Of a DNA stretch of 64,000 nt, positions 1,054 to 52,195 are shown in pieces. How positions within the stretch are numbered: position 1 is the first letter of the stretch; each line of letters opens with the position of its first letter. The notes beneath the pieces are model-generated. The model was not told the origin of the DNA. It ran no database searches and saw only the letters and a list, made by a program, of their open reading frames with translations. The stretch lies in NCBI RefSeq assembly GCF_027595985.1, contig NC_073313.1:99683552-99747551 (forward strand), in the 5' to 3' direction. This DNA comes from Sorex araneus (lineage: Eukaryota; Chordata; Mammalia; Eulipotyphla; Soricidae). A program made the position numbers and the translations under genes.

Positions 1054-1366
1054 AGAAATGCTGGTGTCTTTGTCAATAAAGCAAAATGATTTTTAAATCT
1101 ACCTGCCATTTTTTTTAATGAAGAGCCTGATCTGCATGGCAGATTCTATATAGTTTTCTAGGCACAAATAAAAATAAAAACTCAGCTCTAGAATACACTT
1201 CCCAGAGAGATGATCTCAGCCATCGGTTATATGCCTGGATAGCTAAAAGTGCCATTAAAAACAGTTTTACAATTATGCATCAAGTGATCATCTCAATGTA
1301 AGCCTCCTAACAAGTAGAACACAGGAAGTCTATATGAAAACATTATTATATAACTACACATTCTTG

Positions 1367-1612
1367 TACTGGAGCGATAGCACAGCAAGTAGGGCATTTG
1401 ACTTGCACGCGGCCAACCAAGGTTTGATTCTTCCGTCCCTCTCGGAGAGCCCGACAAGCTACTGAGAGTATCCCGACTGCACGGCAGAGCCTGGCAAGCT
1501 AACTGTGGACTATTTGATATGCCAAAAACAGTAACAACAAGTTTCACAGTGGAGACGTTACGGGTGCCCGCTGGAGCAGATCAATGAACAACGGAATGAC
1601 AGTGCTACAGTG
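1367..1612 (+). mobile_element. SOR-headed SINE with RTE-derived tail, complete copy
   Basis: The element starts with the SOR tRNA-like head (A box within 'gatagcacagcaagtag', B box 'GGTTTGATTC'). It then diverges from the A-tailed SOR family: a central body ('cggcagagcctggcaagct', 'gatatgccaaaaacagtaac') leads to a 3' end starting 'tggagacgttac' and closing with 'gacagtgctacagtg'. There is no poly(A). A 13-bp target duplication, 'ctacacattcttg', flanks it exactly (1354-1366 and 1613-1625), so this is one integrated unit and not a chance juxtaposition. The 3' segment matches the 3' end of the RTE LINE at 3606-4290, suggesting RTE machinery mobilised it. Confidence 0.85.
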
Positions 1613-1740
1613 CTACACATTCTTGATTTGATCAAATAAACAAAAATAAATGTAGAAGGGAGATGAATTACAGCAGGTTAGGGGACCTGTCCTGCATGCG
1701 TCAATCAGATGCAACATTAACTGTCTTCATTGAAAATCCT

Positions 1741-1966
1741 GTTGCTCATCGATTTGCTGGAGCAGGCACCAGTAACATCTTCATTTTGAGACTTGTTGTT
1801 ACTGTTTTGGGCATATTGAATACGCCAAGGGTAGCTTTCCAGGCTCTGCCATGCAGACGAGATACTCTTGGTAGCCTGCCAGGCTCACTGAGAGGAGTGG
1901 AGAAATCAAACTCAGGTCGGTTGTGTGCAAGGCAAGTGCCCTACCGCTGTGCTATAGATCCAGCCC
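1741..1966 (-). mobile_element. SOR-headed SINE with RTE-derived tail, antisense
   Basis: Read on the - strand it has the tRNA-like head ('gctggatctatagcacag'), the central body and the RTE-like 3' end ('gtgcctgctccagcaaatcg'). Its tail faces that of the copy at 1367-1612, so the two form a tail-to-tail inverted pair about 130 bp apart. Confidence 0.8.
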
Positions 1967-3136: not shown

Positions 3137-3605
3137 ATGAATCACCTTGAGATACAGTTACAGACTTACAAACTTTTGTGATTACGTTTCACTTATACAA
3201 TGATCAAGTACCCACCCCTCCACCACCAGTGTTACCAGTATCCCTCCCGCCACCCCCACCTCATATTCCATGCCTCTGTGGCTCTGTGGCAGGCACATTT
3301 CCTTTTACTCTCTCTCTCCTTTTGGGTGTTATGATTTGCAATACAGGCACTAAGTGGCCATCATGTTCAGTCCATAGCCTACTTTCAGCACACATCTCCC
3401 ATCCAAAGCGAGCCTTCCAAGCATTATTTACTTAGTGGTCCCCTCTCTATCCCAGTTGCCTTTCCCCAGCATATGATTCTGGCTTCCAAGCTGCAGAGAG
3501 ATCCTTCTGACCCTTATCTCTGCTGTTCTTGAGAGTTAGTCTCCCATTATGTTACTTTATATTCCAAAATGAGTGCAGTCATTCTATGTCTGTCCTTCTC
3601 TCTAG
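3137..3605 (-). mobile_element. L1 3'UTR, antisense (right part continues after an RTE insertion)
   Basis: It begins with the 3'-end signature 'tgaatcaccttgagatacag' and continues through the C-rich, poorly coding L1 3'UTR to 'tctatgtctgtccttctctc'. The element resumes at about 4291 ('tcatttcacttaacatgata') and runs to about 4395. The 685 bp between is a separate RTE fragment, so the RTE piece was inserted into an existing L1. Confidence 0.85.
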
Positions 3606-4290
3606 TATCACTTGTATCACTTGTCATCCCATTGATCTTCGATTTGCTCGAGTAGGTGCCAGTAACATCTCCATTCGTCCCTGTCGCGTGCTAGTGTAGC
3701 CCAATGGTATCTGCTAGCTCCAGGAACAGGAAGAACCTCAAAATGTTCATTCAGGGTTTTGACTAAGAAGTCTGACCATCTCGTAGGTGGGGGGGGTGCC
3801 ACGCGGTCTTTTGACGTCCCGTGGAATCCAGTCGGTAACAGCAGCTCTAGTCCAGAGGTCATCTCTGAATCACATTATGTGTCTGGCCCATCTGATTTTT
3901 GACTCCTTAGCAAACGAGACAGCATCCCTGATTCTTGATCATTGACAGAGGTCGGAACTCCGGATTCCTTCTCTCAGTTGAGTAAAACTCGATACTCCAA
4001 GCATAGCTCTTTCGATTCCTCTTTGGGATACCCAAATAACATTCTCATCCTGTTTGCCTAAGGCCCAGGTCTCTGAGGCGTATCTTAGTTAGTGCAGGAA
4101 GAACGTTGGAGTAGAAAAGATGTGCCCAGATCTGTAGGTTCTTTGTCCTCTTAACCACTTCTTCGACGCTCTTGAAGGCATTCCACACTGCTCTCTTCCT
4201 TCTGTGCAGTTCTGGCACCAAGTCGTTCCTCATGTTGAGTTCTCCTCCCATGTACACATAGCTGCTGCATATGGAGATGTTCGTTCCGTA
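3606..4290 (-). mobile_element. RTE-clade LINE, 3' fragment (RTE1_Sar-like)
   Basis: Translated on the - strand, with frame breaks, it gives the end of an RTE reverse transcriptase ORF. The region behind RT ('SYVYMGGELNMRNDL', then 'AHLFYSNVLPAL') lies at about 4290-4080. The C-terminal segment at about 3860-3617 includes '[14 protein letters not shown]' and '[12 protein letters not shown]', and the stop is the TGA at 3619-3617. Behind the stop is a short tandem tail (two CAAGTGATA units) instead of poly(A), as RTE elements have. It sits inside an antisense L1. From memory of the family these motifs fit RTE1_Sar, an element shared by the common shrew and parasitic nematodes. A database search is needed to confirm the exact subfamily. 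Confidence 0.8.
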
Positions 4291-12213: not shown

Positions 12214-12620
12214 TGAGAGAGAACAAGAGGTAGAAAGTGGGAGGGATAAAGAGAGAGTGAGAGAGAGAAGGAGGAGGACTAGAAAGAGTAAGAGGAGGCG
12301 GTGGTGGTGGAGGTTGAGGAGCAGAGATTGGAGGAAGAGGAGGATGAGGAGGAGGTGGGGGAAGAGGAGGGAGAAGAGAAGAGGATGAGGAAGAGGAAAA
12401 AGAAGAGAAGTGGGCAATGGAGGAAGAGGGAGGAGGAGGAAAGGGAGGAGGGAGAAAGGGAGAAGGAAAAGGAGGAGAAGAAAAAGAAGGAGGAGGAGTA
12501 AGGGGAGGAGAGATAAAGGGGGAGGAAAAGAAGAAGGAGGAGATAGAGGAGAAAGGGGAGTAGAAAGAGGGAGGAGGAAGAGGAGGAACAGAAGATGGAA
12601 GGGGAGGAGGAGGAGAAGAA
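12214..12620 (+). repeat. Polypurine tract, (GGA/GAA)n-rich, about 400 bp
   Basis: Almost pure A/G on the + strand: GAGAGA at the left, then imperfect GGA/GAA/GGAAGA units. Pyrimidines appear mainly near 12280-12330. The long Leu/Ser/Pro- or Glu/Arg/Lys-rich frames across it are low-complexity artefacts. Confidence 0.95.
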
Positions 12621-12621
12621 C

Positions 12622-13412
12622 CTGGGTTGCTTGCATGATTGTCCTTCATCTAGTTTTCTGCCTGTTCTATTCAGGACGACAGGAATGAACAACTTGTAGA
12701 CAACAGACAGCAGGCAGATTGGGCGATAGTGGCCGATGTCGTGGATGTCTCCCTTCTTGTACAACAGAACGGTCCTGCTGGTTTTCCACAGGGATGGAAC
12801 CTTGCATTGAGACAGGTAGCGTGTGAAGAGCCGAGCCAGTGTATTGATGAGTACTGGTGGCAGATTCTTCAGGTGTTCGTGTCTGACCTTGTGTGGACCG
12901 GGTTTGTACGTGTCTTTACCAATGAAATGGCGTGTCAGATTTCGGAAGGGAGGACGTTGGGAATGACATACCCATCCTGCAGAATTTGGTATGTCAGCAG
13001 GTGGACATGGCTGTCAAAGAGATCCTAGTAGAAGTCGTGAATAATCCTCTTCATTACCTTTCTGGAAGATGTGATAGATCTATCAGGATGTCAGAGGGCA
13101 GTCATCTTGGTCTTGTAGTTGGCAAAGGACAGGCAAGCATTGCCAATACTTTTCCTGGCTTCTGCCGTATCGGCCAACACTACTGCTCTTCTGTCCTTGA
13201 GGTCTTCCTTTATCGCTTCTCTGCACAACTTTGCGAGCTCGGACGTTAGCTTGTGGTTGCCTGAGGCTTGTGCCAAACCACGTTGACAAATGAGCTCAAG
13301 AGTTTCCAAAGACAGGCGGGTGTTTGTGGCTTTCTCATTCTCGGCATTCTTCGAGCAGTCATGGAGGTGCTGAACCAGTCGGTCGTACTCCTTGTCAATG
13401 TTGTCAAGCCAC
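12622..13412 (-). mobile_element. RTE-clade LINE, linker and start of RT (RTE1_Sar-like)
   Basis: On the - strand the sequence reads from the linker between endonuclease and RT ('DNIDKEYDRLVQHLHD', 'LSLETLELICQRGLAQ', 'LTSELAKLCREAIKEDL', around 13412-13100) through frame-broken sequence to an RT motif block at about 12764-12640 ('YKKGDIHDIGHYRPICLLS', then 'LDEGQ'). It stops where the polypurine tract begins. It comes from a different part of the same element as the 3606-4290 fragment. Several frameshifts make it inactive. Confidence 0.8.
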
Positions 13413-14300
13413 CACCACCTCATGCATGAGTGAAGCCTTACAGAACCAGGTAAGCAGAACTTTGCAACCTTGGACTCTAGGCTCAACGAGATCCGGAAAC
13501 AAGATACTCTGTCTGCCTCCTGCAATCTCCAGCACCTTAGGGAGGGGTCAAACACAGACTTCCCCACCCTACCCAAGCCATATAATTACCTCACCGGCCG
13601 ACCCCCACTACCTACACTACCCAGCCACCGCCATGTTCCAGGCCGCTCTCTGGACAGTTGGGCTGAACCTCACACACGAGTAAAGCCCCACAGAACCAGG
13701 TAAGCAGAACTTTGCGACCTTGGACGAGACCCGGAAACAAGATCCTCTGTCTGACATAGAAAGATTGCACTCATCTATGGTATATAGAATAACAGAGTGG
13801 GAGACTAACACCCAAGAACTGTAGAAATAAGTACCAGGAGGTTGACTCCATGGCTTCGAGGCTGGCCTCACGTTCCGGGGAAAGGGCAACTCAGAGAAGC
13901 GATCACCAACTACATTGTAGTCGAAGGCCATGTGGGGGAAGGGAGTTGCGGGCTGAATGAGGGCTAGAGACTGAGCACAGCGGCCACTCAACACCTTTAT
14001 TGCAAACCACAACAGCTAATTAGAGAGAGAAAACAGAAGGGAATGCCTTGCCACAGTGGCAGGGTGGGGTGGGGGGGAGATGGGATTGGGGAGGGTGGGA
14101 GGGACACTGGGTTTACGGGTGGTGGAGAATGGGCACTGGTGAAGGGATGGGTTCCCAAACTTTGTATGAGGGAAGTATAAGCACAAAAGTGTATAAATCT
14201 GTAACTGTACCCTCACGGTGATTCTCTAATTAAAAATAAATAAATTAAAAAAAAAAATCCTCTGTCTGCCTCCCCCATATACATATAGAAGTGTTAAAAT
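13413..14300 (+). repeat. Monomer-type repeat interrupted by an L1 3' end
   Basis: Two related units ('gaaccaggtaagcagaactt' at about 13443 and 13696) belong to the same family as the 30-31 kb array. The second is split by an L1 3'UTR (13754-14256, sense, poly(A) at its end) flanked by the 12-bp duplication 'atcctctgtctg' (13742-13753 and 14257-14268). Confidence 0.75.
13754..14256 (+). mobile_element. L1 3'UTR, sense, 5'-truncated, with TSD
   Basis: Starts 'acatagaaagattgcactca' and ends with 'aattaaaaataaataaatta' plus an A run. This is one of the better-preserved L1 3' ends in the window, and its precise duplication marks a simple truncated insertion. Confidence 0.92.
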
Positions 14301-14303
14301 ATT

Positions 14304-14700
14304 ATCACTGTCACTGTATCACTGTCATCCTGTTGTTCATTGATTTACTCGAGCGGGCACCAGTAATGTCTCTATTACACTCAGCCCTGAGATTTTAGCA
14401 AGCTCTCCTTACTCGTCTTTCCGAATGATTGGAGGCTCTTTCAGGGTCAGGGGAATGAGACCTATCGTTACTATTTTTGGCATATCAAAACGCCACGGGT
14501 AGCTTGCCAGGGTCTGCCATGCAGGTGGGATACACTCAGTAGCTTGCAGGGGTCTCCGAGAGGTATGTATATATCTTTTACTGTATTTGGGATATGAATA
14601 CGCCATAAGGAGCTTGCAAGGCTCTCCTGTGCAGGCAATAAACTCTTGGTAGCTTGTCACGTTCTCCAAGAGAGAGAACAAGGGTATTAGATGTCTCTCG
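14304..14700 (-). mobile_element. RTE-tailed SINE derivative with repeated body module, antisense
   Basis: On the - strand it ends with the RTE-type tail (antisense 'gatttactcgagcgggcacc' at about 14341) and short CAGTGATA-like tandem units. Upstream are two copies of the SINE body module ('ggcatatcaaaacgccacgg' near 14480, 'gggatatgaatacgccataa' near 14588). The SOR head is missing. Confidence 0.65.
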
Positions 14701-15190
14701 GCCGCAAGCCGCTTCCGGGAGCTTGATTTTATAATCTCCTGATGTTGGCCATATTTGGGATTACACGGTGCTGGGGGTAGTTTGTGGGTGTGGCTGCTAA
14801 GCTACTGGAAAATGGGGGCCTCGGTGAAGAAGTCCAAGTCCCAATCCGAGCAGGCTTGGAGATCTCAGCCCCGAGTCCCACACACCTGGGTTCCTCTGCT
14901 GGTCCCTTCATGCGTGAGACTCATCTGAACGTGTGGAGTGTGGCCTTGAGCATGGCTGTGGCTGGGTTCTGGAGGTCTTCAACTGTCAAGGCTCTGCTTG
15001 GGGCAGGGAGGGAAAGGCAACCTGTCTGTCCCCTCCGAGGGGCCCCAGTGAAGACAGCCAGGCATGTGGGGCAAGAGACTCTGTGTTGCTCTCTTCCAGG
15101 AGCTTGGTTTTATAGTCTCTGGATGTTAGCCATTGGTGGGATTACACAGTGCCAAGGACAGTTTGTGGGGTGGCTTCCAAGCTATTGTTA
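14701..15190 (-). repeat. Promoter-like monomers, antisense array
   Basis: On the - strand two units carry a TATAAAA box (antisense 'gttttatagtct' at about 15109 and 'attttataatct' at about 14726), giving a period of about 384 bp. Each is preceded by 'cacacccacaaac'-like sequence. The same units occur on the + strand at 30-31 kb. Confidence 0.7.
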
Positions 15191-28613: not shown

Positions 28614-28757
28614 AATTCAGAATACCTGGCAAGCTACCTGTGGCATATTCGATATGCAAAAAAACAGTAACAACAAGTCTCACAATGGAGACATTACTGA
28701 TGCCCGATCAATTAATTGATGAACAATGGGATGACAGTAACACTGACAGTGACAGTG
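28614..28757 (+). mobile_element. RTE-tailed SINE, 5'-truncated
   Basis: Starts inside the body ('acctggcaagctacctgtgg') and ends in the RTE-like tail ('gaacaatgggatgacagtaa') plus GACAGT repeats. The tRNA-like head is absent. Confidence 0.85.
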
Positions 28758-31346: not shown

Positions 31347-31519
31347 GGGGCTGGAGCAATAGCACAGCGGGTAGGGCATTTGCCTTGCACGCGGCCAACC
31401 TGGGTTCAAATCCCAGCATCCGATATGGTCCTGTGAGCACCGCCAAGGGTAATTCCTGAGTGCAGAGCCAGGAGTAACCCCTGTGCATAGCCGGGTGTGA
31501 CCCAAAAAGCAAAAAAAAA
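31347..31519 (+). mobile_element. SOR SINE, sense, A-tailed
   Basis: 'ggggctggagcaatagcaca' to 'gtgtgacccaaaaagc' plus an A run. It sits 65 bp from an RTE-tailed SINE with almost the same head, so the two families can be compared directly here. Confidence 0.95.
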
Positions 31520-31542
31520 TTTTTTTTGCTAATTTTATTTTG

Positions 31543-31806
31543 CGGGCACCAGTAACATCTTTATTGTGAGATTTCTTGTTACTGTTGGAGCAATAGCACA
31601 GCGGGTAGGGCGTTTGCCTTGCATGCGGCCAACCCGGGTTTGATTCCTCCATCCCTCTCAGAGAGTATCTCGCTCCGCATGGCGGAGCCTGGCAAACTAC
31701 CCATTGCGTATTCGATATGCCAAAAACAGTAACAACAAGTCTCACAATGGAGACGTTACTGGTACCTGCTCGAGCAAATAGATGAGCAATGGGATGACAG
31801 TGGTAT
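31543..31806 (+). mobile_element. RTE-tailed SINE, sense, preceded by an antisense tail fragment
   Basis: 31543-31582 is antisense tail ('gcgggcaccagtaacatctt'). About 31583-31806 is a full sense copy: head 'ggagcaatagcacagcgggt', B box 'GGTTTGATTCC', body 'gatatgccaaaaacagtaac', RTE-like end 'gagcaatgggatgacagtgg'. There is no A tail. Confidence 0.9.
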
Positions 31807-33930: not shown

Positions 33931-34232
33931 ACACACTGTATCACTGTTCATCGATTTGCTCAAGTGGGCGCCAGTAACGTCTCCACAAACTATACACACA
34001 AACTTTTATTATCTGTCACAATACATAGCTTTTCCTTGCGATAAGAATGCTCAAGATTTGGGGCTGGAGCGATAGCACAGCGGGTAGGGCATCTGCCTTG
34101 CATGCAGCAGACCTGGGTTCGATTCCCAGCATCCCATATGGTCCCCCGAGCACTGTCAGAATAATTTCTGAGTGCAGAGCCAGGACTAACCCCTGTTAGT
34201 CCTGCTGGGTGTTACCCAAAAAGCAATAAAAA
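33931..34232. mobile_element. RTE-type tail fragment (-) and SOR SINE (+)
   Basis: 33931-33986 is an isolated antisense tail ('catcgatttgctcaagtggg'). 34060-34232 is a sense SOR copy with a partly rearranged 3' half and an A tail. Confidence 0.8.
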
Positions 34233-52056: not shown

Positions 52057-52195
52057 AGCAGAGCGTGGCAAGCTACCCATGGCATATTCGATATGCCAAA
52101 AAAAAGGAACAACAAGTCTCACAATGGAGACGTTACTGGTGCCTGCTAGAGTAAATCGATGAACAATGGGATGACAGTGCTATCGTGCTACTACA
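52057..52195 (+). mobile_element. RTE-tailed SINE, 5'-truncated
   Basis: 'cagagcgtggcaagctaccc' through 'gagacgttactggtgcctgc' to 'gacagtgctatcgtgct'. It truncates the fossil RT. Confidence 0.88.

Follow-up and report, generated by a model that had tools for sequence, protein, structure and literature searches.

Within the 64,000 nucleotides of Sorex araneus DNA analyzed here (‘the window’; positions 99,683,552 to 99,747,551 of NC_073313.1, assembly GCF_027595985.1) lies a full-length SINE of approximately 250 bp, at 1368-1616, that is 91.6% identical to the 251-bp consensus of its family. An exact 13-bp target-site duplication (TSD), CTACACATTCTTG, encloses it on both sides. Read from its 5' end, the element comprises a tRNA-like head, a segment from the 5'UTR of an RTE LINE, a short junction and an RTE 3' end that finishes in tandem ACAGTGCT units. 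These parts, and the related elements of the window and elsewhere in the genome, are collected in Table 1.

The head is also carried by a second class of SINE, which ends in poly(A). As the original prediction held, the copy at 31347 and others in the window share it, and from consensus to consensus the two heads are 95.5% identical over 66 bp. This A-tailed class is presumably Sor. In the window ARAGORN reports tRNA-Ala five times, each time on an A-tailed copy. The head would be a promoter-bearing piece from a small RNA gene, with a predicted pol III promoter.

Most of the remainder is RTE. Positions 65-175 of the SINE consensus are 94.6% identical, over 111 bp, to the consensus RTE 5'UTR, and match the leader directly upstream of the endonuclease frame in all seven RTE copies compared (89-93%; L071, a long copy with leader, and L072-L077). 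About eight bases later, from position 183 onward, the consensus is RTE 3' end (85.7% over 63 bp). The RTE-derived share thus amounts to some 175 of 250 bp, in two pieces of which the leader piece is the larger. The original prediction had assigned the RTE a 3' tail of about 56 bp only; the tail stands, and the ‘body’ between head and tail, 1432-1540, is RTE 5'UTR as well. Judged by these alignments, nearly all of the SINE other than its head derives from one RTE LINE. The RTE reading frame runs to a stop inside the tandem units in 6/6 copies examined, despite lesions further up, which makes most of the SINE tail the terminal part of the LINE's coding sequence. A 150-residue C-terminal query for nematode proteins that would support this frame gave 15 candidates, none significant, so it is from the frame that the coding nature of the tail is argued. 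Conserved RNA structure was looked for in both RTE pieces, and folding was no better than that of shuffles (z -1.4 and 0.3).

Table 1. Features of the focal SINE, its relatives and the RTE-derived families (window coordinates unless a locus is named)
Feature	Position	Strand	Remark
5' target-site duplication CTACACATTCTTG	1354-1366	+	exact 13-bp match to 1613-1625
tRNA-like SINE head (putative pol III promoter region)	1367-1431	+	89% to A-tailed copy 31347 over 56 bp
Segment from RTE 5'UTR	1432-1540	+	82.6% to RTE copy L071
Short junction between both RTE pieces	1541-1549	+	outside either BLAST alignment
RTE 3' end: last ORF codons and tandem units ACAGTGCT	1550-1612	+	78.6% to L071 (1550-1617)
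3' target-site duplication	1613-1625	+	exact 13-bp match to 1354-1366
Second RTE-tailed SINE with head	1736-1966	-	consensus 1-232, 84.5%
RTE LINE, 3' part	3605-4287	-	87.6% to L071
RTE LINE, internal part	12618-13408	-	82.7% and 77.1% to L071
RTE 5'UTR piece, opposite orientation beside 12618-13408	13417-13652	+	82.4% to L071
RTE derivative lacking a tRNA head: piece of 5'UTR and 3' end	14311-14563	-	74.7% to L071 5'UTR
D2 copy	14578-14938	-	77.2% to L061:2251-2617
5'-truncated headless SINE copy	28625-28738	+	consensus 125-238
A-tailed SINE, comparison class	31347-31519	+	shares head with RTE-tailed SINE
Third headed copy (31586-31805), preceded by inverted SINE piece (31542-31586; consensus 162-206)	31542-31805	+	flanks AATTTTATT(T/C)TGC by eye
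Tail-only SINE copy	33934-33985	-	consensus 185-239; GTGTGTATA both sides, duplication by eye
5'-truncated headless SINE copy	52058-52191	+	consensus 119-251
D2 members	L061:2110-2770, L054, L060, L064, L059, L045; window 14578-14938
D3 copies	L079:41-899, L078:91-897, L048:317-1225

Six RTE-tailed copies in the window had been named as sharing the Sor head. Three of them carry it (the focal element and those at 1736 and 31586); two are headless and one is a tail only. In the third headed copy, the inverted piece in front repeats a stretch that the adjoining SINE still keeps, and a duplication, identified by eye, flanks the pair. The tails had, in addition, been expected to agree with the RTE that lies in the window itself, at 3606-4290. 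Four do, over 44-54 bp (at 1736, 31799, 52176 and 33942), and the tail of a further element, at 14311, does so over 68 bp; the tail of the focal copy gives no match to it at E 1e-3, and agrees better with RTE copies L050 (80% over 61 bp) and L071 (79% over 70 columns).

The 3' part of an RTE LINE at 3605-4287 has 40 scored genome matches at 86-88%, itself aside, and a Pfam search of it returned no domain. At 12618-13652 an RTE leader lies inverted beside an inner part, an arrangement that fits twin priming, should that mechanism apply. In copy L050, Pfam recognizes an endonuclease domain (Exo_endo_phos, E 6e-7). The 266-residue reading of L050, with X at a stop, has 653 protein matches, and among the 120 of these listed every stated organism is Sorex or a strongylid nematode: Sorex fumeus, Sorex araneus, Haemonchus, Necator, Angiostrongylus, Ancylostoma, Heligmosomoides and Nippostrongylus. 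The Sorex fumeus proteins, most of which bear the label craniofacial development protein 2-like, place the RTE in a further Sorex species and show that it finds its way into gene annotation. The same joint distribution, within the 120 listed, characterizes RTE1_Sar, an RTE common to Sorex and strongylid nematodes, for which the direction of transfer is unsettled by age and nematode to shrew is favored (PMC6542046). The predicted resemblance of the partner to RTE1_Sar is thus borne out, as a likeness of distribution. RTE1_Sar is an autonomous LINE, unlike the SINE here, and the main text of that paper is without the word ‘SINE’ (PMC6542046). An Rfam search of L071, L072, L061 and L050 for self-cleaving ribozymes at the 5' end of the RTE was negative. 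At L050:4884-5097 an RTE 3' end is followed directly by a 5'-truncated copy of the D2 family described below, perhaps a joint insertion.

RTE sequences of the same kind occur under other heads, or under none. ‘D2’ is a family of approximately 660 bp without a tRNA head, in which the middle resembles the RTE leader at 80% identity and the last part is an RTE 3' end with GAT repeats. The window derivative at 14311-14563 carries a SINE-type tail (ACAGTG), 90.8% identical to the SINE consensus; the D2 copy at 14578-14938 lies directly beside it and points the same way, and the two may therefore be one element with a repeated leader. ‘D3’ (L048, L078 and L079) joins a piece of RTE leader to an RTE 3' end with the SINE-type ACAGTG tail, and a probe from this RTE part has 8,009 candidates in the genome, of which 40 were scored, all nearly full length. 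Upstream of the RTE part, 3/3 D3 copies read share a CpG-rich stretch of at least 520 bp (77.6 and 78.1% identical to L079). Translated past a single stop, one frame of the L079 head has Vav-3 as its best match (chain 2d86_A, E 1.6e-34) and Vav-1 as the next (3.7e-26); the other two frames have no protein match. By this similarity the D3 head is the start of a host VAV coding region with its surrounding sequence, VAV3 being the best match and not proof of identity, and the VAV piece would be a first exon. The similarity to Vav-3 ends at about MSQ, and the shared sequence runs on for some 90 bp before the RTE part. Finally, L017:1-135 is a LINE fragment with a SINE-type tail (GATGAGCAACGG, AGTGATACAGTG), only 79% identical to the SINE over the tail; possibly, it is a trace of a donor subfamily.

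Divergence from consensus, CpG-masked, was measured with consensuses that include some of the measured copies. RTE-tailed SINEs span 0.035-0.116 (n=16; median 0.068 or 0.082, depending on the consensus), and A-tailed SINEs 0.022-0.35 (n=64; median 0.075), so that the A-tailed range is the wider and the older. The burst of the RTE-tailed class thus falls inside the lifetime of the A-tailed SINE, which is what the gain of RTE ends by a resident SINE would predict. Two long RTE copies, at 0.040 and 0.071, fall within the RTE-tailed range; two short RTE pieces, one of them inside the D3 copy L048, lie at 0.15 and 0.19.

One alternative concerns the RTE that supplied the ends. The donor, and driver, might have been an older or different shrew RTE lineage than RTE1_Sar, with the SINE built from its derivatives. 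Two differences tell against a partner of the RTE1_Sar type: from consensus to consensus, identity to the RTE drops from 95% in the 5' piece of the SINE to 86% in the 3' piece, and the SINE tail is built of ACAGTGCT, whereas ACAAGTGAT is the unit in most RTE copies. The tail states of the SINE (GATGAACAACGG, ACAGTG) recur in L048, L078, L079 and window 14311, derivatives that have no tRNA head, and in LINE fragment L017, and are absent from six longer RTE copies; D2, moreover, has a 5'UTR clearly diverged from that of the young RTE. Against this stand the near-identity of the SINE's 5'UTR piece to the young RTE 5'UTR and the overlap of the divergence ranges, and we regard a different donor lineage as unlikely.

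That L1 moves both SINE classes, the RTE pieces being mere passengers, is a far weaker proposition. The two classes do share a head and a genome. They insert differently, however. TSDs were called for 21 of the 50 RTE-tailed copies (5/150 with shuffled partners) and for 29 of the 54 A-tailed copies (9/162 shuffled), the RTE-tailed sample being non-random in that most of its copies are the best matches to the window copy. In a comparison that needs no duplication calls, AAAA occurs at -24 to -6 upstream of 36/54 A-tailed copies and only 5/50 RTE-tailed ones (P 1.8e-9), and TTAAAA upstream of 16/54 and 0/50, respectively; L1-type sites are thus a property of the A-tailed class and not of the RTE-tailed one. 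Among called duplications, at least three A's in the first four bases are found in 26/29 A-tailed and 1/21 RTE-tailed cases. The RTE-tailed class, furthermore, lacks poly(A). Passenger status is, in view of these differences, highly improbable. Assignment to the L1-mobilized (Sor-type) SINEs was considered and rejected, the RTE-tailed class having neither the poly(A) tail nor the TT/AAAA site.

The first bases of RTE-tailed duplications extend the tail unit by 1-5 bases in 15/21 cases, and by at least two in 11/21, a continuation that fits priming on the tandem units and is partly built in by the way in which duplications are called. A Tn-TA insertion signature has been published for RTE LINEs (PMC13295347). 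TA is present at the joint in 10/21 RTE-tailed cases (background 0.217, P 0.0075), but is as common in A-tailed ones (15/29); a T-run is not enriched, TTT at -14 to -5 occurring in 8/21 and 9/29, respectively. Called automatically, TSDs accompany none of seven RTE LINE copies, one of them the D3 copy L048, 1/8 D2 copies and 2/11 truncated SINEs (0/130 shuffled). The RTE LINE figure arises because 6/7 queries did not reach the 5' end of the element; by eye, 2/5 RTE copies (L069 and L070) have likely duplications.

A genome search with the focal SINE returned 8,094 first-look candidates, and the 40 that were scored span 236-246 of its 246 bases at 87-89% identity, the query itself aside. When 39 scored matches are aligned with the window copy (40 rows), the start, the joints and the tandem-unit end prove common to all, with few exceptions at the outermost bases, which suggests that the fusion had a single origin. 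The tail units are mostly ACAGTGCT or ACAGTGAT and poly(A) is absent, as predicted from the window. Random DNA (the first 20 of 80 random 10-kb stretches, drawn from 11 of 65 contigs that hold 2.33 of 2.41 Gb) contains 12 full-length RTE-tailed SINEs in 198,351 readable bases, equivalent to ~145,000 genome-wide (95% range 75,000-254,000) and, at ~250 bp each, to ~1.5% of the DNA sampled. The same sample holds 49 full-length A-tailed relatives (~594,000) and 5 long D2 copies (~61,000). The window is dense in repeats, and L050 has an RTE followed directly by a D2 copy, but the 40 aligned copies have identical joints, random DNA contains 12 full-length copies, and in 21/50 the duplications enclose the whole unit, which leaves a negligible chance that independent SINE and RTE fragments came to adjoin by accident or nested insertion. 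The earlier view that head, body and tail moved as one unit is upheld, both by the exact duplication of the focal copy and by this high-copy family.

We conclude that the focal element is, very probably, a tRNA-headed SINE that is moved by enzymes supplied by an RTE-clade LINE resembling RTE1_Sar. Pol III would transcribe the SINE from its head, the RTE protein would recognize the RNA through both RTE-derived pieces, and base pairing between the nicked target and the tandem units would prime reverse transcription. For the fusion itself, the probable origin is a template switch while RTE sequence was being reverse-transcribed; it would have started from the RTE or from a deletion derivative that has no tRNA head, such as those at window 14311-14563, L048, L078 and L079. 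The joining of a resident tRNA-like head to both RTE ends means that a foreign parasite provided a native one with a new vehicle. A resident SINE recruiting a foreign LINE was what had been proposed; the acquired RTE end and the non-L1-type sites agree with this, and the proposal was incomplete in that the RTE supplied two pieces rather than one.

More broadly, we lean toward the view that one nematode-type Sorex RTE founded several non-autonomous families, each keeping a 5'UTR piece of ~100-200 bp and a 3' piece of 60-100 bp while the promoter was swapped: a tRNA head in the SINE, a CpG-rich VAV3 piece with its first coding stretch in D3, and an older RTE leader in D2. If so, the shared RTE pieces would be the minimal RTE recognition signals, and any promoter placed before them could found a family. 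Since several derivative families keep both pieces, whether the RTE protein needs both becomes testable, and since one head is common to the A-tailed and RTE-tailed classes, the two offer a natural experiment in which the tail's influence on machinery and target site can be followed. The VAV3-headed sister family suggests that a protein gene, too, can supply the head. The published RTE1_Sar transfer between nematodes and shrews is extended by a native SINE that has acquired RTE ends and reached ~145,000 full-length copies.

A literature search, not exhaustive and with subscription literature outside it, returned no paper on an RTE-tailed shrew SINE, and the SINE may already be entered in a repeat database (Repbase or Dfam). 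A search joining VAV3, retrotransposon and shrew likewise returned no paper, and we have not met a protein-gene head on an RTE-driven family in the literature. A study by Gogolevsky (2008) reportedly belongs beside the Bov-tA/Bov-A2–Bov-B, Ped-1/Ped-2 and AfroSINE–RTE1_LA systems. These systems are tabulated together (PMC3747384) and, as in the shrew, pair tRNA-headed with headless RTE derivatives that carry the LINE tail; their partner LINEs differ from the shrew RTE, and the main text of that source contains neither ‘shrew’ nor ‘insectivor’. Sor is described as a T-minus SINE of the shrew (PMC11240701), and the RTE-tailed class differs from it in lacking the A-tail and the L1-type site. For D3, the nearest counterparts are SVA_F1 and pt_SVA_D6, headed by the first exons of MAST2 and STK40 and present in 84 and 94 copies (PMC6139936). 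There, too, a piece of a host gene heads a non-autonomous retroposon family; there the exon is spliced, whereas D3 is an RTE derivative and its head continues beyond the apparent exon end.

SINEs that borrow the tail of a partner LINE were, as had been noted from the start, already known (e.g. Bov-tA, PMC3747384; the AviRTE SINEs of birds, PMC4844689), and because two-ended SINEs of horizontally moved RTEs have been described for AviRTE and Bov-B, the design of the shrew SINE is not new. To the bipartite, RTE-mobilized (Bov-tA/AviRTE SINE) type the shrew adds a SINE family with a small-RNA-gene head, a LINE 5' segment, the 3' end of the same LINE with tandem units, and TSDs. The AviRTE SINEs (ManaSINE1, GymnSINE, MeloSINE and BuceSINE) have a bipartite tail from the 5' and 3' regions of their LINE (PMC4844689). 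They resemble the shrew SINE in joining a promoter head to a two-part tail, in belonging to an RTE that is shared with nematodes and has moved horizontally, and in the several different heads within one element group. The shrew system differs from them in its mammalian host, in its RTE family, in a head that comes from a resident A-tailed SINE, and in its ~145,000 full-length copies.
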